Shown piece by piece: positions 2 to 37,950 of a stretch of DNA of 54,589 nt; position 1 is the stretch's first letter; the number at the start of each line of letters is the position of its first letter. The notes beneath the pieces were generated by a model. The model did no database searches. It had not been told where the DNA came from and saw nothing but the letters and a program-made list of their open reading frames with translations. Location of the stretch: positions 1-54,589 of the forward strand of contig JAHBWT010000017.1 in assembly GCA_019636815.1 (NCBI GenBank). The letters are read 5' to 3'. The translations under genes and the position numbers were made by a program. Source of the DNA: Nitrospira sp. GTDB taxonomy: Bacteria > Nitrospirota > Nitrospiria > Nitrospirales > Nitrospiraceae.

Positions 2-1138
2 CTATCGGTAGAACGTGGCGAACGCCTCAACGACCTCAGTCTGCTGCCCTGTGGTCAGCTCCGGATAGATCGGAATCGCGAGGGTCTCATTGGCCGCGCG
101 TTCCGATTCAGGAAAGTCGCCTTCCTGATGCCCCAAATATCGAAAACATTCCTGCAGGTGAAACGGAACCGGATAATAGATCTCCACACCGATCCCGTTC
201 TGTTTGAGGTGAGCCAGTAAATCGTTTCGCCTCTCGACCCGGAGCACAAATTGATTGTAGATGTGGTAATGCTTCACACCAGAGGCTCGATAGACAGCCT
301 CCGGCAACTGCATTCTTCCCTTCCGAACTAAACCACTCTGTTGAAACAACCTCTCGTAACGATCGGCATTTTCCTGTCGGCGCGTAGTCCATTGGTCTAA
401 ATATTTGAGCTTCACGTTGAGCACCGCCGCCTGAATCGTATCGAGCCGGAAGTTCCCGCCGATCAATTTGTGGTAATACTTCGGCTTGCTGCCGTGGGCG
501 CGCAGGACTCGCATCCGTTCCGCGAGATCGGGATCGTTGGTCACCGCCATCCCGCCATCACCCAAACATCCGAGGTTCTTACTGGGAAAGAACGAGAAGC
601 AGCCGATGGTTCCGATACTGCCGACGCGCCTGCCATCGGCATACTCGGTCCCGATCGCCTGAGCGGCATCTTCGATCACAGCCACCTTCCGGCGGTGTGC
701 GATGTCCATGATCGGCTCCATGTCGGCCGACTGTCCGTAGAGGTGGACAGGGATGATGGCTTTGGTTCTCTGCGTGACGGCCTTTTCAACCTTGTTAGGA
801 TCCAGATTGAACGTGCGTGGATCGATGTCGGCAAGGACCGGCTTGGCGCCTAGCCGAACCACGGCTCCGGCAGTGGCAAAGAAGGAGTAGGGTGTGGTAA
901 TCACCTCGTCTCCCGGTCCCACGCCCAATGCCATCAACGCAATTAGTAGCGCGTCAGTCCCCGACGTAACTCCAATCCCATGCTTTGCCTGGCAGTACGC
1001 AGCCACCTGTTCTTCCAACTTTCCCACTTCCGGCCCCAAAATGAAGGCCTGGCTCCGGAAGGTCTGCTCCATCGCTGCCATAATTTCACGATGAAGCGGC
1101 TCGTGATGTGCTTTCAAATCAAGTAATGGAACGCCCAT
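2..1138 (-). CDS. DegT/DnrJ/EryC1/StrS-family sugar aminotransferase (WbpE-like)
   Basis: PLP-dependent aminotransferase of 378 aa, normal length for the family. It would transaminate a 3-keto (or 4-keto) nucleotide sugar in the cytoplasm using glutamate. Seen: SGTDAL at residues 59-64, the EDAAQ cofactor-binding segment at 156-160, and the Schiff-base lysine in SFFPSKNLG at K187. It lies 14 bases downstream of the WbpB–WbpD fusion gene. In the Pseudomonas/Bordetella Wbp pathway WbpB (oxidation), WbpE (transamination) and WbpD (N-acetylation) act in succession on UDP-GlcNAcA, so the 3-amino-transferring WbpE role is the best guess. That is inferred from context, because sequence alone does not fix substrate within this family. 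The stop codon lies at the left edge of the window, so any downstream partner is not visible. Confidence 0.9.
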   Translation of the reverse strand: MGVPLLDLKAHHEPLHREIMAAMEQTFRSQAFILGPEVGKLEEQVAAYCQAKHGIGVTSGTDALLIALMALGVGPGDEVITTPYSFFATAGAVVRLGAKPVLADIDPRTFNLDPNKVEKAVTQRTKAIIPVHLYGQSADMEPIMDIAHRRKVAVIEDAAQAIGTEYADGRRVGSIGTIGCFSFFPSKNLGCLGDGGMAVTNDPDLAERMRVLRAHGSKPKYYHKLIGGNFRLDTIQAAVLNVKLKYLDQWTTRRQENADRYERLFQQSGLVRKGRMQLPEAVYRASGVKHYHIYNQFVLRVERRNDLLAHLKQNGIGVEIYYPVPFHLQECFRYLGHQEGDFPESERAANETLAIPIYPELTTGQQTEVVEAFATFYR

Positions 1139-1152
1139 GAACCTCTCCTTTC

Positions 1153-2748
1153 CTAGACAACCACCATCCCGGTATCTTCGGTTCGATATTGCTGCCCACA
1201 GGCGGGACAGCAGGCGGCTTTCTCACCTTCGATACGAAGCTTAACCCCGCACAGACACATCCATCCCGTGATCCGGCCTGGGTTGCCCACCACAAGCGCA
1301 TGATTCGGGACGTCCTTGGTCACGACCGTTCCTGCACCGATTACCGCATATCTCCCGATCGTAATCCCGCACAGAATGGTCGAATTGGCTCCTAATGTGG
1401 CTCCTCGCTTGACAAGCGTCAGCCTCAGCTCATTCATCCGTGGAATCTCGCTTCGGGGATTAAAGACGTTCGTAAAGACCATTGATGGCCCGCAGAAGAC
1501 ATGATCTTCAAGGGTGACACCTTCATACACTGACACATTATTCTGGATTTTGACTCCATTCCCCACGGTGACATGGGGACCGACAACGACATTCTGGCCG
1601 ATTTTGCAGTTCTTCCCAATACGCGATCCTTTAAGGATATGAGATGTGTGCCATATACTCGTCCCCTCACCAATTTCCACCCCTTCGTCGACGAAGGCCG
1701 ATTCATGAGCAAAGTACAGTTTGGCCTGTTTTAATACGGGTTTCTGCCGCAGTATGGCCTGCTCCAATGCCTCTTGGCACCGCTGCAGCACGGAGAGCAC
1801 GCGCAACCCCTCCTCTCCGTCCGTTCTCGGTTTCGTTCTCGTCTCGACACAATCAATAAAGTGCCGGCATTCGGCTCGTAGCGGCTCTCCCTGATCGAGT
1901 TCGATCGTCTGGGCATCCGCTTTATTCGCGATGGGAATATTGTCTTTCCAGTCGATGGAATGGGGATACAAGAGCAGTTTGTCCTTCTTTTCCAGATCGT
2001 CAAACACCGCCATCTTACGATCGCCCACCACAATCAGCTTCTGCTCCTTGAATGGGTGCAGCCAGGAGACGAAGATATGGGCCTTCACGCCGCTTGGAAA
2101 CGATAAAAGACTGATGGTAACGTCGGCGATGTGTTGATGGAGGTAATTCCCCCCTTGCGCCAGGACTCCCTCGGGAGTTTCGTTGACCAGGCCCAAAATG
2201 ACGGAAATATCGTGAGGCGCAAAGCTCCAGAGGATATTCTCTTCTCGACGAATCTTACCCAGGTTCAACCGATTTGAATAGATGTACTGAATTCGACCCA
2301 GTTCGCCAGACCGAATCAATTCTTTGAGTTTGAGCACGGCAGGATGATACCAAAGGAGATGTCCCACCATGAGAATGCGGTCGTGCTTCTTTGCCAGAGC
2401 AACCAGCGCTTCACCTTCTTTGACTGATAGACAAAGTGGTTTCTCTACAAACACGTCTTTACCAGCCAGCAAAGCCTCCCGTACTGCATCGGCATGTCCC
2501 TCAGCCGGGGTGGCAATCGCCACCGCTTGAATCGTCTCATCTCGCAAAATCTCTGAATACGCTCGAACCAGCTTTATGTCCTGATTCAATTCACCAAACG
2601 ACGCTAATCGTTCGGCATCATTGTCACAGATGGCAGCGAGCGCCCCCAAACCGGCAAAGTTACGCACCAAATTCTTTCCCCAATAGCCGGCCCCGACGAC
2701 GGCCACCTTAACGCCGACCCGTTCGCATCTATCAGACGTTTCCCCCAT
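1153..2748 (-). CDS. WbpB–WbpD fusion: Gfo/Idh/MocA dehydrogenase + hexapeptide acetyltransferase + zinc-ribbon tail
   Basis: A 531-aa two-enzyme fusion. Residues 14-335 are a Gfo/Idh/MocA oxidoreductase: NAD-binding GAGYWG at 19-24 and the family EKP motif at 102-104. Residues 345-495 are a left-handed beta-helix N-acetyltransferase with repeated [IV]G-x4 hexapeptides and the usual end [12 protein letters not shown]. The last 35 residues hold CLC (498-500) and CCPAC (513-517), which look like a small zinc ribbon. Known family roles: WbpB oxidises UDP-GlcNAcA at C3 and WbpD acetylates the resulting 3-amine, so one polypeptide would flank the aminotransferase step coded by the next gene. The start is the ATG preceded by GAGGAGG, 8 bases upstream. 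The same frame stays open to 3192 but overlaps the next gene and has no family homology, so I rejected that extension. Confidence 0.9.
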
Positions 2749-2834
2749 TTCACCGTCCTCCTCACAGCAAACAAATCGTTTCAGACCTATCCACGTATCA
2801 ACTATCCAAGACTTCAAAGACACTGGGATTTCGT

Positions 2835-3866
2835 TCAACGAGATTTCGCATCCGTCACCACGTCTTTGGTCGACACCTGCTCCACCCTGGATGCCTGCGC
2901 ACCGTGCAGGAACCCCCACATGAAACCAATGCCGTAGGCAAGGTGCATCGTGGCTGCCGCCACGGGAAACAGACAACCAACTCTCCAGCCCACACGGCGA
3001 GACAGGTGAAACCCGACGCCACAGAGGATGAGTCCATAAAGGCATGGACCCGTGAGCAGCACAAGACGCCACCCTGACGGCAAAAACGGGGCAAGTGTGA
3101 GCGCGCCAACCAGCCCGATTACAAAAGTGGGTGGCACAAGATGTCGAAAGGAGGCGGGCATGCGATGCTTTCTGATAACGGCGACTCGCCAATATCCATA
3201 CTCGAAATACTGACGAAAAAGCGAACTGATCGTTTCCCTGACGAAATACGTCGACCGTGCACGTGGAGAGAGAAAAACCTTTCCCCCGTGTTTTGTAAGA
3301 CGATAATTGAGCTCATCATCCTGGTTGCGCACCAACATTTCATCATAGAGCCCGATCTCTTCAAAGATTTCTTTGCGAAACACCGGATAACAAGCCCCCT
3401 CGGCATAGCCTTCAAAGTCAGGATGCCTATGTGTCGCATTGCCTATCCCAACAGGATGAGCCATCGCGGCAGCAACGGCTTGACCGAATACGCTCTTGCC
3501 CGCGCTAACAATCGGTCCACCGGCACAAGAGACCTCAGGATGTTCATCCAGCAGTTCAACACAGGTCTTCAAGTAGTCGACGGCATAATCGCAATGTGCC
3601 CCCAAGATGGCGATGTATTGTCCGCGCGCCTCCCGAATACCGACATTCATCGCACAAGGAGTGACGCGACGTGGGTTTTCGACGACACGCAGTTCAGAAT
3701 GTTTTTGGGTGAGCGTCTCCAGGATCTCTCTCGTGCCATCGTCAGACATTCCATCAACGACAATAACCTCAATTCCCCCTGGAGGGCGCTCCTGACCCAG
3801 AATTGATCGTACGCAAGTCTCGATATGTCGGTTCTCATTACGACAAGGCATGACCACGGAAAGCAT
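2835..3866 (-). CDS. Family 2 glycosyltransferase with C-terminal membrane segments (ExoA-like)
   Basis: Inverting GT-A glycosyltransferase of 343 aa. The N-terminus ([11 protein letters not shown], then [12 protein letters not shown]) is the GT2 nucleotide-binding fold, and [12 protein letters not shown] around residue 180 carries the acidic/ED-type catalytic region. The last ~100 residues contain about three hydrophobic segments with short loops, as in ExoA-type succinoglycan transferases, so it probably works at the cytoplasmic face of the inner membrane on a lipid-linked acceptor. It is 86 bases upstream of the WbpB–WbpD gene and may be co-transcribed with it. Upstream is the large divergent gap before the beta-helix genes, so this could be the first gene of a short leftward unit. 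The sugar transferred cannot be read from the sequence. Confidence 0.85.
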
Positions 3867-4542
3867 ACTAGTCCTTTAGCAGACAAGCGCCGACCTTGAC
3901 GCGACACCACAACACTCGGAACTAACGGCATCGGGAACCGTCATGACCCGGCTGCTTTTTGCCATAGAACAACCGGCCGCTCACTTCCCACAGAAACCGC
4001 CGCCGTTTTCACGAGTCATGGTGAGCATTGAACACGTTTTGACGTTCGGGGAATAACCCGGCAGCCAGGAATACGGCGCTCTTGCACGCAACGACCGGCG
4101 ATGACAACACGACTGATGAAGCAAATCCTAACACTCTTGAATACCAGAACCTATCTCAAAATCGATTTTCGAAGTAGGTGCTCCTTGGATTTCTGACGGC
4201 AGAATCATATCAGACAATAAAGCCATCTTCACAATAAAGCGACCTTCTCATTTTGTTAAGAATGTGCAATATCTCGAAGTTATCCATCCCCTCATACTTG
4301 ATATCGAGAAGGGACCCACTGGCTTCAGGACACCTTCTCGGTGAGTTGTGCGGCAGGTCGTTCGCCCATTTCTGTCTCACAACAACCACTGTCCGTCAGT
4401 CCAATCAGCCAGGGCTTAATCCCACTCAGTAGACTGACCTTGAGCGTCTACTTAAGCCTACAGTACCTACAGTTTCTGAATTGCCATCAATCGGCTTATA
4501 TGAAATATTATCATGTTTACAATTGCTTACACATTTTCTATC
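3867..4542. other. Long divergent intergenic region without a convincing gene
   Basis: About 780 bases separate the leftward GT2 gene from the rightward beta-helix gene at 4649; this entry covers the part up to the sigma-54 motif at 4543. The longest open frame here (4341-4649, plus) runs through the promoter motif and has no family resemblance, so I do not call it. The part from about 4140 is visibly AT-rich. The region must hold the leftward promoter for the gene at 3866 and any enhancer sites for the rightward sigma-54 promoter, but I found no clear palindrome or -35/-10 pair. Confidence 0.6.
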
Positions 4543-4558
4543 TGGCATCCACTTTGCT
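4543..4558 (+). promoter_or_regulatory. Sigma-54 (RpoN) -24/-12 promoter of first beta-helix gene
   Basis: The sequence is TGGCATCCACTTTGCT. It has the GG and GC dinucleotides at the exact sigma-54 spacing and matches TGGCAc-N5-TTGCw at all core positions except C→T in the -24 box. It lies in an AT-rich intergenic stretch, 91 bases (promoter end to ATG) before the gene at 4649. The paralogue at 6345 has an equivalent element at almost the same distance, which strongly supports function. A cognate NtrC-type activator is not in this window. Confidence 0.75.
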
Positions 4559-4648
4559 CATGGAGCGCACTAGACATCTTCCAGCAAACGCTCAACAAGC
4601 CATTGCCGCAGTCTCAGCGTGTTGCGGACTAAATAAGGAGATTCCATA

Positions 4649-5860
4649 ATGACTCGACTCAAGCAAGCAGTCGGTGCCTGCATTCTAGCCAGTGCCATTT
4701 TGCCGGCTATTGCGGCCCAGGCGGCGACGTACTATGTGGCCACCACCGGGAACAACAGCAATGCTGGCACAAGCTCTAAGCCGTGGCGAACCGTGGCTTA
4801 TGCCGTATCTAAAATGACCGCAGGCGATACGACCTATGTGAAGGGCGGGGTGTACAAGGAGACATTCGTTCTATTCCGGCAGTCCGGCACTCAGTCAGCT
4901 CCCATCAGGCTCCTTAATGCTCCTGGAGAGTTCCCGATTATTGAGTGCATTGATCAAGCTGCAGGCCATCGAGTTAACATGCAGAGCGCGAGTGGAACTA
5001 GATATCCAATAGGATGGATCACGATTGAAGGATTCGAGATACGACGTTGCAACAATGGGATCAAGTTCTACAACCTTCACAATGGCACGATACGACGCAA
5101 CTGGATTCACCACAACACTGGAGGAAGCGGAATTTTTGGGTGGGGCACCAAGGTTGTGATTGATCGAAATATAATTAACAGCAACGGTAGTTCATCAGCC
5201 GGTGGTCATGGGATCTATTCCAACGGATCGTATTTCACCATCACGAACAATCTCATTTATGACAACGAGAAATACGGAATTCAGCTCAATGGGTCCACTA
5301 GCTCACGTTATAATTCTACCGTACATGCGGGACCAGAGTACGCGGATTCTAAGAACTGGACTATTGCCAACAATACCTTTGCATACCAAAAAGGCCAGGC
5401 CGGTCTGGTCGTATGGGGTTCGACATGTCATAATGCTCGGGTTGAAAATAACATTTTCTACGAGAACGCCGTCAAGAAAGGCACTGGCAGTGAGCAGGGA
5501 ATTACTTTCTTATCAACGACGTGTACAGGGACAACGGTTAGAAACAACCTTGCCTACGCGAGTGGGTCAGGCGGCACGAAGTTTACTGCAGGTGCGGCTC
5601 CAGGGCTCACGCAATCCGGCAATGTTGTAAACACGATCAATCCCAAATTCGCCAATGCCCCTGCCACATTTCCGTCATCGCCGAATTTCTCTCTGACCTC
5701 AGGAAGCCCAGCCATCGATAGAGGCTTATCGCTCTCTGCGACCAAAACATCGTTCCCCGGCATATCTCGACCAAAACAATCTGGCTATGATATCGGCGCC
5801 TATGAATATTCCGGCAGTACAATACTCACTGCGCCAACATCACTCCGAGTTGTTAACTAA
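4649..5860 (+). CDS. Secreted right-handed parallel beta-helix protein (paralogue 1)
   Basis: A 403-aa exported protein. Residues 1-25 are a Sec signal peptide with an ILPAIAAQA-type SPase I site. The mature start ATYYVATTGNNSNAGT and the following segment are typical of Pel9A-like or disaggregatase-like parallel beta-helix proteins. Short coils rich in N-N-x-I/F (IDRNIIN, ITNNLIY, IANNTF, VENNIF) fill residues 150-320. The end GSPAIDRG...YDIGAYEY is the usual C-terminal cap. Such folds bind or cleave uronate-rich polysaccharides, so a role in trimming or organising the exported polymer is plausible but unproven; I cannot identify a catalytic residue. TAAGGAGA lies upstream of the ATG. Expression is probably sigma-54 dependent. 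The protein ends on APTSLRVVN, a tail shared with paralogue 2. Confidence 0.88.
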   Translation: MTRLKQAVGACILASAILPAIAAQAATYYVATTGNNSNAGTSSKPWRTVAYAVSKMTAGDTTYVKGGVYKETFVLFRQSGTQSAPIRLLNAPGEFPIIECIDQAAGHRVNMQSASGTRYPIGWITIEGFEIRRCNNGIKFYNLHNGTIRRNWIHHNTGGSGIFGWGTKVVIDRNIINSNGSSSAGGHGIYSNGSYFTITNNLIYDNEKYGIQLNGSTSSRYNSTVHAGPEYADSKNWTIANNTFAYQKGQAGLVVWGSTCHNARVENNIFYENAVKKGTGSEQGITFLSTTCTGTTVRNNLAYASGSGGTKFTAGAAPGLTQSGNVVNTINPKFANAPATFPSSPNFSLTSGSPAIDRGLSLSATKTSFPGISRPKQSGYDIGAYEYSGSTILTAPTSLRVVN

Positions 5861-5911
5861 AGTGCGTGGTCCGCTGTGGGCCGATTAGCCTGGTAGCTGC
5901 CCAACATTCCC

Positions 5912-5937
5912 TACCGCGCTGCTGACGCAGCGCGGTA
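5912..5937 (+). terminator. Strong perfect hairpin after beta-helix gene 1
   Basis: An 11-base perfect inverted repeat (TACCGCGCTGC / GCAGCGCGGTA) closes on a 4-base loop, TGAC. It begins 52 bases after the stop codon of the gene ending at 5860. No T-run follows, so it is not a classical intrinsic terminator. It could stabilise the 3' end of the mRNA, act with Rho, or be a REP-like palindrome. Confidence 0.6.
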
Positions 5938-6237
5938 ACCTTGGCTCGCAACCGCCCTTCCTCCGCCATTATCTCTATAGCTCACGCCATACGTGCCACA
6001 CCATTACCAGATGTTCTGGAGTAAGTTGCCGAGGGTCTGGATGTTCGACTACCTTGAAACCTCCTCTTTGGTACGTCTAGCATAAACCGTGGTGACAGTT
6101 GGCATAGGAATCAGGTCAACAAGGTTCTGAAGTCCTTTTCAACGCACACTATTTACGGCCCATGAACGGTTTTGAACCAGCTTAAACGAATTCTTGCAGT
6201 TTCTTCTTTGTTTTTGGCCGCTCGTGAACAGCCAACT
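5938..6237. other. Intergenic spacer between the beta-helix paralogues
   Basis: No gene is supported here. The segment lies between the hairpin after paralogue 1 and the sigma-54 motif of paralogue 2, so any activator site for the second promoter should be within it. I saw no perfect palindrome of 12 bases or more. Confidence 0.55.
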
Positions 6238-6253
6238 TGGCATGATTGTTGCG
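6238..6253 (+). promoter_or_regulatory. Sigma-54 (RpoN) -24/-12 promoter of second beta-helix gene
   Basis: The sequence is TGGCATGATTGTTGCG, with GG/GC spacing identical to the consensus and TGGCA plus TTGC intact. It lies 92 bases (promoter end to ATG) before the gene at 6345, against 91 for the paralogue. That implies near-identical 5' leaders of about 80 bases. Confidence 0.75.
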
Positions 6254-6344
6254 ATCCTCCACATGATGCGGAACTTCATTTGGTGGAACCGGGAATGACA
6301 TCGCCACAAACTCATCCTATTGTAGACTATTGAAAAGGCTACCT

Positions 6345-7601
6345 ATGATCATTCGACTCAAGCGAGCCATCGGTACCTGCATTTTGGCTAGTGCCCTCTT
6401 GACAACCGTTGCGGGTTGTCAGCACTATTCTGGCGCGGCCCATGCGGCGACGTATTACGTCGCTACGACCGGGAGCAACAGCAATCCTGGGACAGAAAAC
6501 AGACCATTCCTGACGATTGCTTATGCCGTCGATGCTATGGTCGCAGGAGATACGACCTATGTAAAAGGTGGGGTGTACAACGAGAAAATCATCCGATTCA
6601 GGCGATCCGGCACCAAGCCGGCTCCTATCAAGCTCCTCAATGCCCCTGGAGAGTCTCCGGTCATTCACTGTATTGACCCCAAACAATTCCATAGGATTAT
6701 TCTTCATCATGCATCAGGGTCTCGATTCCCTATCGGATGGATCACGATCGAGGGGTTTGAGATACGGAATTGCTGGGAGGGCATCAAGTTTTACAACGCC
6801 CATGATTCAACATTTCGGCGCAATTGGATTCATGGCGACCACGATCTCGCCAGGCCCGGGATTCTCGGAAACGGCACAAGGATACTGATTGATCGAAACA
6901 TCATTAATAATAACGGATTCGAGGGGCATGGCCACGGCCTATACATGAATGGAACAGCGCTGACCATCACAAACAATATCATTTACAACAATGCGGGCTA
7001 CGGCATTCAGCTGAACGGATCGAGCAGTTCCTTTTACGATCCTAGCAAGCACGCTGGTCCGGAATTTGCTGTTTCAGCGAATTGGATCATTGCCAATAAT
7101 ACCATCGCTTACAATCAAGCAAAAGCTGGCATTGTCGTGTGGGGCTCGACATGTCATAATGTTCAGATCGTAAATAACATTCTCTATGAGAATGCCGCCA
7201 CGCGACCCACATCTGCGTCTCAAGGAATTGATTTTGTCTCAACGACCTGCAAGGGCATCCAAATCCGAAATAACCTGGCGTTCGCAAGTGGCTCTGGCGG
7301 CATGAATTTTCTCAGCGCTGGGGCAACGGAAGGTACCCATTACACACAATCCGGCAACATCGTAAATACGGATAATCCACAATTCGTCAATGCCCCAGCG
7401 ACACTTCCTGCGTCACCAAATTTCGCTCTGACCGAACGAAGCCCAGTCATCGACAAGGGCTTAACTCTTACCGCAACCAAAATAGCCTTCGACGGCACGA
7501 ACCGACCCCAAGGGCGTGCCTACGATATTGGCGCCTGTGAATACAATCTTAATGGCGACGCCCAATCACCGAAAGCACCAGCGGCACTCCGAGTTCAGTG
7601 A
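6345..7601 (+). CDS. Right-handed parallel beta-helix protein with lipobox (paralogue 2)
   Basis: A 418-aa paralogue of the protein at 4649, collinear over its whole length; by eye more than half the residues are identical. Same architecture: signal sequence, ATYYVATTGSNSNPGT start, N-N-rich beta-helix coils, then GACEYN cap. It differs in the signal region: LLTTVAGC is a good lipobox, so this copy may be a lipoprotein, while paralogue 1 has an SPase I site. The ATG at 6345 is chosen because AAAAGG lies 6 bases upstream and the N-terminus then aligns with paralogue 1. A TTG at 6330 in frame is less likely. The C-terminal tail ends APAALRVQ, mirroring paralogue 1, as if a linker to a lost domain remains in both. 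Function as a polysaccharide-binding or -modifying protein is inferred. Confidence 0.87.
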   Translation: MIIRLKRAIGTCILASALLTTVAGCQHYSGAAHAATYYVATTGSNSNPGTENRPFLTIAYAVDAMVAGDTTYVKGGVYNEKIIRFRRSGTKPAPIKLLNAPGESPVIHCIDPKQFHRIILHHASGSRFPIGWITIEGFEIRNCWEGIKFYNAHDSTFRRNWIHGDHDLARPGILGNGTRILIDRNIINNNGFEGHGHGLYMNGTALTITNNIIYNNAGYGIQLNGSSSSFYDPSKHAGPEFAVSANWIIANNTIAYNQAKAGIVVWGSTCHNVQIVNNILYENAATRPTSASQGIDFVSTTCKGIQIRNNLAFASGSGGMNFLSAGATEGTHYTQSGNIVNTDNPQFVNAPATLPASPNFALTERSPVIDKGLTLTATKIAFDGTNRPQGRAYDIGACEYNLNGDAQSPKAPAALRVQ

Positions 7602-7658
7602 AGATCCTTCAACCGAGCCAGCTGCTTCAGTCAGCATTCTCCTCTTCCGATTCTCTAT

Positions 7659-9095
7659 CTACTTCCGCTCATGGTCGACGGGCCCATCACAAACCGACTT
7701 CTGAGACACAGCACCAGGAATTTTACAAATTACAACGCGAAACTTCCCATTTGGCTCACGAGGAATCTCAGTCAACGGTTCCATTATTACCTCGACATTC
7801 CCTATTCTCGCTTTTAGTCTTTGCACAATCATGTTTTCATGATGTGCGGTAAAGTTTGGAGTCGGCACAAAATTCACCCTCACGCAATCGAGTGATTCCT
7901 GGACAATCTGGGCTTCGCGTATGGCAAGGTCACCATTGAATACTTGCCCAAACCTACTGATGCGTCTCCCATCCTTTGTGTAGATCACATCGCCTATCCG
8001 TCCGTCTACCGACCCCATAACCGGTAATGTGCGTCCACATTGGCATGCTTCAGAACTATCCATTAAAACGCCCCGATCGCCAGTACGGTACCGGATCAGC
8101 GGCATATCTGCATTCAACAGGCCCGTGCATACGAGATCACCCGAGCTTCCACAGGGCACAGAGCGATCGTCTTCCATCACTTCCACCCACCCAACCTCGG
8201 GCCACAGATGCAATCGGCCGGCCGTACACTCAGTGGCAGTCACTACAATTTCCGCCATTCCATATGTTTCACGAACTGGACAGTGAAACGCTTGAGCAAT
8301 GGTCGCACGTTGATAGGGATAGACCGGTTCCGCATTTGTAATGGCAACGGTCATATCGATACCTCGTCTTCCTGATTCCAGAACAGCTTGAGCCAACGCA
8401 TGGAGAGAGGACGTATATCCCAAGAGGTACGTCACGCGATAGCGCGACATCGCTTCCAGATAGAAGCTAACCAGATCAGGGGCAAGGTGGTAGGAAGACA
8501 TGTACAATTGACTCAGCCCCTTATTCCAGACCCAAAAAGGCGGCTGTCGTTGGTTTACAGGGGTCACTAATTGGCCGCCGATGATCGCCCATCTATCGTG
8601 ACGAGAAACGCCATTCCAATAGCGAATCCGAGCTTCACACAAAGCATACCATTTCCGCACCGTCTCCCTGCTCAAGTACAAACTCAGCGGCTTGCCAGTC
8701 GATCCGCTCGTATGGTCGTGGAACATTCGACGTCGATCACAGTCGTCAGCCACAAAGGCGCTTGCATTTTGTCTGACAGACTCTTTCTCAAGTATTGGCC
8801 AATTTTCCAAGTATTCCCAGGAAGCCCGGTCTCCCCCACGACGACGCGTGGCCCACTGTTCGCGATAATACGGGACCTGCGTGGCGGCACGATTCAACAC
8901 ATACGCGAGACGTTCCTCTTGCCAGGCCTTCCACTGCGTCGGACTCCATTTTTCGCGACCTATGGCTTCTTCAGCGAGGCGCTCGGTCTCGGTACCGTAT
9001 CGCCAGGATCGAAGGTAAAACCCACGAAGACTCGCCGCCATCGAACGCAGAGGTGCCGGGAGAGAATGATATGTTTTAAGGAGCCTGTCAGCCAT
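7659..9095 (-). CDS. CapK/PaaK-like AMP-forming ligase (phenylacetate–CoA ligase family)
   Basis: A 478-aa adenylate-forming enzyme. The ATP-binding motif TSGSTGKPLSLY sits near residue 130, an A5-like YGMAE motif near residue 290, and YRTGDRG around residue 350, followed by the small C-terminal domain. This is the PaaK/CoF390-synthetase branch, whose members occur in capsule clusters as CapK. The acyl or amino-acid substrate it would activate for attachment to the polymer is unknown. It converges with the beta-helix gene ending at 7601 (57-base gap) and lies 7 bases downstream of the glycosyltransferase at 9103-10176, so it is probably co-transcribed with that gene. Confidence 0.85.
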   Translation of the reverse strand: MADRLLKTYHSLPAPLRSMAASLRGFYLRSWRYGTETERLAEEAIGREKWSPTQWKAWQEERLAYVLNRAATQVPYYREQWATRRRGGDRASWEYLENWPILEKESVRQNASAFVADDCDRRRMFHDHTSGSTGKPLSLYLSRETVRKWYALCEARIRYWNGVSRHDRWAIIGGQLVTPVNQRQPPFWVWNKGLSQLYMSSYHLAPDLVSFYLEAMSRYRVTYLLGYTSSLHALAQAVLESGRRGIDMTVAITNAEPVYPYQRATIAQAFHCPVRETYGMAEIVVTATECTAGRLHLWPEVGWVEVMEDDRSVPCGSSGDLVCTGLLNADMPLIRYRTGDRGVLMDSSEACQCGRTLPVMGSVDGRIGDVIYTKDGRRISRFGQVFNGDLAIREAQIVQESLDCVRVNFVPTPNFTAHHENMIVQRLKARIGNVEVIMEPLTEIPREPNGKFRVVICKIPGAVSQKSVCDGPVDHERK

Positions 9096-35636: not shown

Positions 35637-36143
35637 TTAAGCTGCCATATAGGGGGATAGTTTGTCGATATCCACTTCAGCTCTCGCATGAAGAGCCAGT
35701 GTATGGAGAAGTACCATTGCTCTTTGTCGCCCTGGCATTTCTCGAACAAATACGGCATCGAGTCCGACCAATGGACCGTCCTTGATTTGGACAAGTTGGC
35801 CATTCCTCAGCTGTTTCAGACCTTGCAGTAAATGCATTTTAGAATCCGTCATTCTGCTCTTGATTGCGTCAATCACCGTAACATCTACCTGCACCGGCTT
35901 TGAACCGAACTCCACAAGCTTTCGAACCCCTCTGGCATACATCACACCGCGACAGTGCTCGGACAGATTAACCCGAACAAACAGATATCCGGGAAAGAGA
36001 GGAGCACTTACCGTTTTTCTTTGACGACGGATAGTCTTCTCTTCTTGCAATCGTGGCAGAAAACACTCAAATCCCATGAGTTCAATATTCCGCTCAGCTT
36101 GTTTTTCGTGGTTTGGCTTCGTACTCACTACATACCAACCCAT
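35637..36143 (-). CDS. NusG-like specialised antiterminator (RfaH/UpxY/LoaP-type)
   Basis: A 168-aa NusG paralogue. The NGN domain (residues 1-105) starts MGWYVVSTKPNHEKQAERNI and contains FECFLPRLQEE and SAPLFPGYLFVRV; the KOW domain is GQLVQIKDGPLVGLDAVF. Proteins of this size at the head of long polysaccharide units (RfaH, UpxY, LoaP) bind RNA polymerase and suppress termination over the whole operon. Here it heads a ~36-kb leftward locus, and its leader holds an ops-like element. It is a specialised paralogue, since general nusG normally lies beside secE and ribosomal-protein genes. I chose the ATG at 36143 by homology; upstream in-frame codons start from a TTG without support. Confidence 0.9.
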   Translation of the reverse strand: MGWYVVSTKPNHEKQAERNIELMGFECFLPRLQEEKTIRRQRKTVSAPLFPGYLFVRVNLSEHCRGVMYARGVRKLVEFGSKPVQVDVTVIDAIKSRMTDSKMHLLQGLKQLRNGQLVQIKDGPLVGLDAVFVREMPGRQRAMVLLHTLALHARAEVDIDKLSPYMAA

Positions 36144-36219
36144 CGCACAAGATCCCGATCTGTCTATAAAAGAATTGCTCACAGGTTGCGTTTCCCAAAT
36201 GCACAAAGTAAGTCTTCAG

Positions 36220-37341: not shown

Positions 37342-37950
37342 ATGGCCGACTTATCGAAAAGTATCGACCAAACGGACGCCCTTGCCGATCAACGAGCGGG
37401 GTCTGGTATTGTCGTGCTCTCGGCATCCATGCAGCTTCTCCATATGAATCGGCAAGCCGCAGAGCTTGCCAAGAAGATCAACGCTGCTGAGCATGGAGGT
37501 AATAGCGCTGTTTCAGCACGCGGGGTTTTACCAACGGCCCTGACTGAGCTCTGCGCAGAAATCATAAAAGCGCTTCATATACGAACAGAAGCCAAAGATT
37601 GGGAACAATTCGAACTCAAACGTGTGACGGGCGACCCCAATCAGCCAATCCTCCTAAGAGGGTTCGGCTTGCCTGATCGAGGAGGCGTTCAATACGCCAG
37701 GTTGGTCGTTACCATGGAAGAGCTGGGGCGGAAACAAAACCTGAACACGGAGCATGCGCGAGAACGGTTCCAGCTAACAAACCGTGAACAGTCTGTCGTT
37801 GAGCATCTAGCAAAAGGGTGGACTAATAAAGAAATTGCCAATGCCCTCCAGATCACAGAACAGACTGTAAAAGAGCACATCAAACATATCATGAGAAAAA
37901 CAAACGCAACCACCCGAACAGGCATTCTTGTCCAAATCTTTAACTCATAG
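37342..37950 (+). CDS. LuxR-family transcriptional regulator
   Basis: A 202-aa regulator. The C-terminal ~60 residues are a LuxR/GerE helix-turn-helix: FQLTNREQSVVEHLAKGWT, NKEIANALQITEQTVKEHIKHIMRKTNA. The N-terminal ~130 residues resemble a PAS-like sensor (GSGIVVLSASMQLLHMNRQAAELAKKI, then ...LLRGFGLPDRGGVQYARLVVTMEE). No receiver Asp or membrane segment is seen, so it probably senses a cytoplasmic cue. It is one of only four plus-strand genes in the window. It neighbours the PilZ gene and a sigma-54-driven lipoprotein gene, but since LuxR proteins do not activate sigma-54 directly, the activator for those promoters must lie elsewhere. Confidence 0.9.
   Translation: MADLSKSIDQTDALADQRAGSGIVVLSASMQLLHMNRQAAELAKKINAAEHGGNSAVSARGVLPTALTELCAEIIKALHIRTEAKDWEQFELKRVTGDPNQPILLRGFGLPDRGGVQYARLVVTMEELGRKQNLNTEHARERFQLTNREQSVVEHLAKGWTNKEIANALQITEQTVKEHIKHIMRKTNATTRTGILVQIFNS

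Follow-up and report, generated by a model that had tools for sequence, protein, structure and literature searches.

The window analyzed here, the whole 54,589-nt stretch of Nitrospira sp. DNA, corresponds to contig C53 in a genome of 4.01 Mb and carries two genes for secreted right-handed β-helix proteins, BH1 and BH2, which lie on the plus strand, antisense within a polysaccharide cluster encoded on the minus strand. Among the named entries of the reference collection, BH1 has its closest relatives in Nitrospira MAGs.

2–3866, minus strand: flanking polysaccharide genes (DegT aminotransferase, GFO/IDH-hexapeptide protein, family 2 glycosyltransferase), with the same neighbours in relatives
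4649–5860, plus strand: BH1, secreted right-handed β-helix protein, 403 aa, with a choice-of-anchor Q domain near the C-terminus
6345–7601, plus strand: BH2, secreted right-handed β-helix protein, 418 aa, paralog of BH1
7659–36206, minus strand: rest of the polysaccharide cluster (AMP-binding-like protein, GT4s, AsnB, Wzy_C, ABC exporter, β-barrel, two Wza-like proteins, sugar-nucleotide enzymes, NusG-like protein)

The β-helix genes keep this one slot, antisense to biosynthesis genes, even in homologs only 28–31% identical. Rfam gave no match in 3860–6400, and a terminator scan of 3860–7700 returned one match, below the shuffle mean, so that it is the long gaps only that argue for single-gene transcription of the β-helix genes. 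At the head of the cluster lies the NusG-like gene (35637–36206), and a LuxR-type HTH gene (37342–37950; 92% identical in genome G025) is on the other strand from the cluster; the pair suggests processive antitermination and a separate control of the biosynthetic operon.

BH1 and BH2 are 63% identical. BH1 matches Pfam PF13229 (5.7e-15) and, above the cut-off, NCBIfam NF041518, and its fold model (pLDDT 82, low over the C-terminal 48 residues) has the right-handed β-helix of polysaccharide lyase family 9/6 (Z 29–30). The nearest solved folds include Pel9A (Z 29.8) and a rhamnogalacturonan lyase (29.5); further matches are the alginate epimerase AlgE4 (25.8) and the Vibrio biofilm lyase RbmB (24.7), a matrix polysaccharide lyase encoded with the Vibrio biofilm genes. 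The two PL9 lyases (PDB 1ru4 and 5olq, in the same order) align over ~290 residues at 18–20% identity, a likeness of fold only, and RbmB, a Vibrio cholerae lyase binding Vibrio polysaccharide (PDB 9ozd/9ozl), has the β-helix fold in common at 12% identity. By this model the proteins fold like PL9/PL6 lyases and alginate epimerases, a shared fold that is not proof of activity. Because the slot is conserved at such low identity and the proteins are secreted, a polysaccharide-modifying or -releasing role is the best guess, and we lean towards the view that BH1 and BH2 are putative enzymes that trim, modify or release the polysaccharide of the surrounding cluster.

Most of the β-helix proteins end, within ~15 residues after the choice-of-anchor Q domain, in a tail of the form P-x-A-P-x-x-L-x-V-x-stop (5815–5857 in BH1 and 7560–7598 in BH2; examples are APTSLRVVN and APAALRVQ), which looks like either a truncated first Fn3-domain strand or a short C-terminal sorting tail. 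Two records labelled Opitutae/Verrucomicrobia (L053, L054) hold β-helix proteins that are 51–54% identical with a much longer C-terminus, possibly through horizontal transfer; the upstream scan of these two records found no strong sigma-54 element.

Each of the two genes in the window is preceded by a sigma-54 −24/−12 element.

4542–4558, plus strand: element of BH1, CTGGCATCCACTTTGCT, with a predicted transcription start at about 4568–4570
6237–6253, plus strand: element of BH2, TTGGCATGATTGTTGCG, with a predicted transcription start at about 6263–6265

The core motifs, TGGCATCCACTTTGC at 4543–4557 and TGGCATGATTGTTGC at 6238–6252, both have the spacing TGG-N8-TTGC (GG-N10-GC), and the C of the −12 element lies 91 nt (BH1) or 92 nt (BH2) from the ATG; motifs, exact sigma-54 spacing and distances are all as the initial annotation had given them. 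Both agree with the consensus YTGGCACG-N4-TTGC, in which GG and GC are 10 bases apart, except for T in place of C at position 6 of TGGCAC, beside which the BH1 element has a second deviation, C for G. On its own the bare core TGG-N8-TTGC is common, with 11 occurrences on the two strands of the window versus the ~6.7 that a rate of 1 per 16 kb per strand would give. Scored in full, the two elements are the best plus-strand matches of the window (16.0 and 15.9 bits), followed by one of 14.2 that abuts an ORF start, and the reversed-sequence controls of the window reach a maximum of 12.9; the weight matrix follows the published sigma-54 consensus, reportedly that of Barrios et al. (1999), only approximately, so absolute bit scores are approximate, which hardly affects the spacing tests.

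The initial annotation had also reasoned that two equally placed matches before paralogous genes were unlikely to be random. Its conclusion holds, on the evidence of the comparative tests in homologs (spacing, a later gene set and exclusivity), but its argument from equal distances was wrong and that from paralogy is weaker than supposed. The element-to-ATG distance in relatives runs from about 46 to 143 nt (a few values may be off, as homolog start codons were picked automatically), so the near-equality of 91 and 92 nt in the window is a coincidence that carries no evidential weight, and since BH1 and BH2 share ancestry their two sites are not by themselves independent draws.

We scanned the DNA upstream of β-helix homologs drawn from the family and the genus for −24/−12 elements, a check that the earlier reading of the locus had proposed; most homologs had an exactly spaced element, and wrongly spaced ones were nearly absent. 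The best upstream site scores 8–19 bits in most homologs, and many exceed the 99% null of 10.9. In a test of 42 family genes (160 nt upstream, cut-off 10 bits), 26 of the 42 had an exactly spaced element of at least 10 bits; shifting the spacing by 1–3 bases left 0–2 in the same genes, the shuffle mean was 0.47, and the reversed and reverse-complement sequences of these homologs held no element of at least 10 bits. A later set of 16 previously unused genes yielded six at 12 bits or more with the correct spacing, none at five of the wrong spacings and one at +3. Across the genome, TGGCAYN5TTGC occurs 29 times, some of them before flagellar-type genes, versus 17 times for a control pattern with one base too many. 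The element is common in the family and not universal: several homologs, mostly distant or partial, are without it, and none was found upstream of the close homolog L135:8463. Two paralogs keep upstream-site-like sequence with a ruined −24 element, through a deletion in one (L132:8489–9751) and a change of GG to AG in the other (L052:3998–5326); these are decayed promoters beside intact ones.

Within the clusters, strong elements are confined to the β-helix genes. Nine sites of at least 15 bits occur in 549 kb around β-helix genes and their clusters, every one of them upstream of a β-helix gene, and in 17 further cluster segments sites of at least 14.5 bits occur only before such genes. The biosynthetic genes therefore show no strong element, and in the window the element scan found none upstream of the 7659–36206 cluster, which supports the earlier proposal that the β-helix genes are regulated separately from the biosynthetic genes on the opposite strand. 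A single rpoN gene (PF04552 match at C65:18918–19400, E 1.5e-58) and about 29 genes for sigma-54 activators are present in the genome.

The DNA between the genes holds further candidate elements upstream of the −24 box and in the leader.

4457–4480, plus strand: candidate activator (bEBP) site of BH1, CCTACAGTACCTACAGTTTCTGAA, about 62–85 nt before −24, proposed from position and conservation
4517–4529, plus strand: IHF-like site of BH1, TTACAATTGCTTA, weak, with 2 mismatches to WATCAANNNNTTR, 25 nt before −24
4622–4628, plus strand: 5'-leader element TTGCGGA(C) of BH1, 27 nt before the ATG
6164–6177, plus strand: candidate activator site of BH2, GAAC-N6-GAAC, with TTTTGAAC at 6170–6177, 67 nt before −24
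6200–6216, plus strand: conserved T-rich tract of BH2, TTTCTTCTTTGTTTTTG, between activator site and promoter, from an alignment of 8 promoters
6320–6326, plus strand: 5'-leader element TTGTAGA(C) of BH2, 25 nt before the ATG

A conserved motif resembling an activator site, TACAnTTTTGAAC, lies 65–75 nt upstream of the sigma-54 element; de novo motif discovery returned the consensus tatnTACAnTTttGAAC at about this distance before the −24 box (log-likelihood 135, shuffles 44–61). CCTACA repeats like those in the candidate site of BH1 recur in three homologous loci (L129, L133, L134). The core TTTTGAAC stands 66–69 nt before the box in BH2, five close homologs and two distant ones, and several of these promoters have GAAC repeats 10 nt apart. 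Paired with the sigma-54 element, TTTTGAAC has 19 matches in 79 genomes (the reversed pattern has 3), of which 10 are directly before β-helix genes and BH2 is the sole one in this genome. In more distant homologs, the interval from activator site to promoter contains an IHF consensus, usually at −25; anywhere in that interval it is exact in 11 of 33 (shuffles 0.2) and within one mismatch in 19 of 33 (shuffles 3.6). In the close group, to which the window belongs, such sites are weak or missing, BH1 having a weak one at the −25 position as well. Taken as a set, the candidate activator site, the IHF site and the −24/−12 element have the classic layout of an enhancer-dependent promoter. Of 15 close homologs, 10 have TTGYRGA(C) in the leader, 24–33 nt ahead of the start codon, the remaining leader having diverged.

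An alternative places the β-helix genes in the PEP-CTERM/exosortase regulon, in which PrsK-activated PrsR would bind the upstream site and drive them. They share features with the known PEP-CTERM/PrsK/PrsR genes (PMC1569441; pepA of Aquincola, PMC9850573): both are single secreted-protein genes near polysaccharide clusters, and PEP-CTERM promoters consist of an activator motif, a spacer of ~63 nt, the sigma-54 element and ~71 nt to the ATG (PMC1569441), a layout with a similar distance from element to ATG and an activator-like site ~60–70 nt upstream of the element. PrsR is above the cut-off in this genome (C56:88542), as is one PEP-CTERM gene, exosortases occur in the genus, and TTTACA is found near the right place in some β-helix homologs. 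However, the commonest upstream core is TTTTGAAC, not TTTACA, and BH1 and BH2 have no PEP-CTERM match in Pfam or NCBIfam. Orthologs of PrsR (62–77%) occur in G099, G146, G167 and G062 but are missing from G025, G096, G134, G105, G130 and G137, which have the same promoters and whose best full-length matches, at 43–46%, are level with other activators. Both of the PEP-CTERM places in this genome are away from BH1 and BH2, and the locus of the PEP-CTERM gene next to prsR contains no strong sigma-54 element. As a universal activator PrsR is ruled out, being present in 5 of 11 promoter-bearing genomes and absent from 6 of 11; it is thus at most a lineage-specific solution, and we regard PrsR control of the β-helix genes as unlikely. 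In six genomes, no activator gene was found in the clusters or within tens of kilobases of them.

It is far less plausible that the motifs are non-functional relics inherited through gene duplication. The paralogy of BH1 and BH2 and the damaged elements in some paralogs would fit such an origin, but the letters and spacing of the −24/−12 element persist to 28–31% protein identity although the flanking DNA has diverged, as do the paired upstream motif and the IHF-like site. Least credible of all are chance matches to a loose consensus with the genes driven by a sigma-70-type promoter: bare cores are frequent in the window and sigma-70-like sites are present (e.g., 4481–4509), but the latter fit only 9 of 12 consensus bases in this region, and spacing-specific conservation and exclusivity to β-helix genes contradict chance.

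We conclude that each β-helix gene very probably has its own sigma-54 (RpoN) promoter, which would be driven by a bEBP, and that its product may modify the matrix. By this mechanism, sigma-54 RNA polymerase would bind the −24/−12 element as a closed complex, and an ATP-driven bEBP would bind TACAnTTTTGAAC-like sites 60–90 nt further upstream; bending of the DNA, by IHF in distant homologs and possibly by the T-rich bend in close ones, would bring the bEBP over, and it would open the complex in response to a signal. The secreted products, with their fold of polysaccharide lyases and uronate epimerases, would most likely trim, modify or release the polysaccharide of the cluster. Synthesis, encoded by the surrounding opposite-strand cluster with no strong sigma-54 element, would stay outside the switch, so that the cell could probably switch on its matrix-modifying proteins apart from the synthesis of the matrix. 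More specifically, the promoters may form a dedicated, lineage-specific bEBP/sigma-54 regulon in Nitrospiraceae, limited within the matrix cluster to the antisense β-helix genes and controlled by an activator other than PrsR, a proposal to which we give an even chance. If it is true, remodelling of the matrix would respond to a signal of its own, separate from synthesis.

Nitrospira grow in flocs and biofilms, and genetic manipulation of them is difficult; the conserved sigma-54 switch of these putative matrix-modifying proteins offers a testable entry to attachment and dispersal in nitrifiers. The system would also extend to a different phylum and a different protein class both the link of sigma-54 with the cell exterior drawn by Francke et al. 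2011 (PMC3162934) and the promoter layout of PEP-CTERM genes, whose shared DNA motif was described only for Proteobacteria by Haft et al. 2006 (PMC1569441). Other bacteria are already known to place polysaccharide-associated secreted proteins under sigma-54 control, so the wider interest is moderate. RpoN-dependence of a PEP-CTERM gene has been demonstrated in Aquincola (PMC9850573). In Burkholderia cenocepacia, RpoN and the activator BerB are reported to control genes of the Bep exopolysaccharide cluster (PMC5552954, PMC9684580); the target there is the polysaccharide gene cluster itself, whereas in the clusters studied here the element is confined to the β-helix genes. A Nitrospira transcriptome paper (PMC6606698) discusses sigma-54-dependent regulators for nxrAB, not for the matrix, and our literature search (Nitrospira with RpoN or PEP-CTERM; β-helix lyases with sigma-54) turned up no account of this system.

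Near prsR and an exosortase, small secreted Fn3-type genes with sigma-54 elements occur in this genome (L266, G000:C56) and in two others (L267, G099:C1; L268, G146:C70), and their proteins have the same kind of C-terminal tail as the β-helix proteins. In G099 and G146 these genes share a conserved upstream stretch like GGTTGAACCCTTCACA..CTACACTTTC, and they probably represent another sigma-54 surface regulon.
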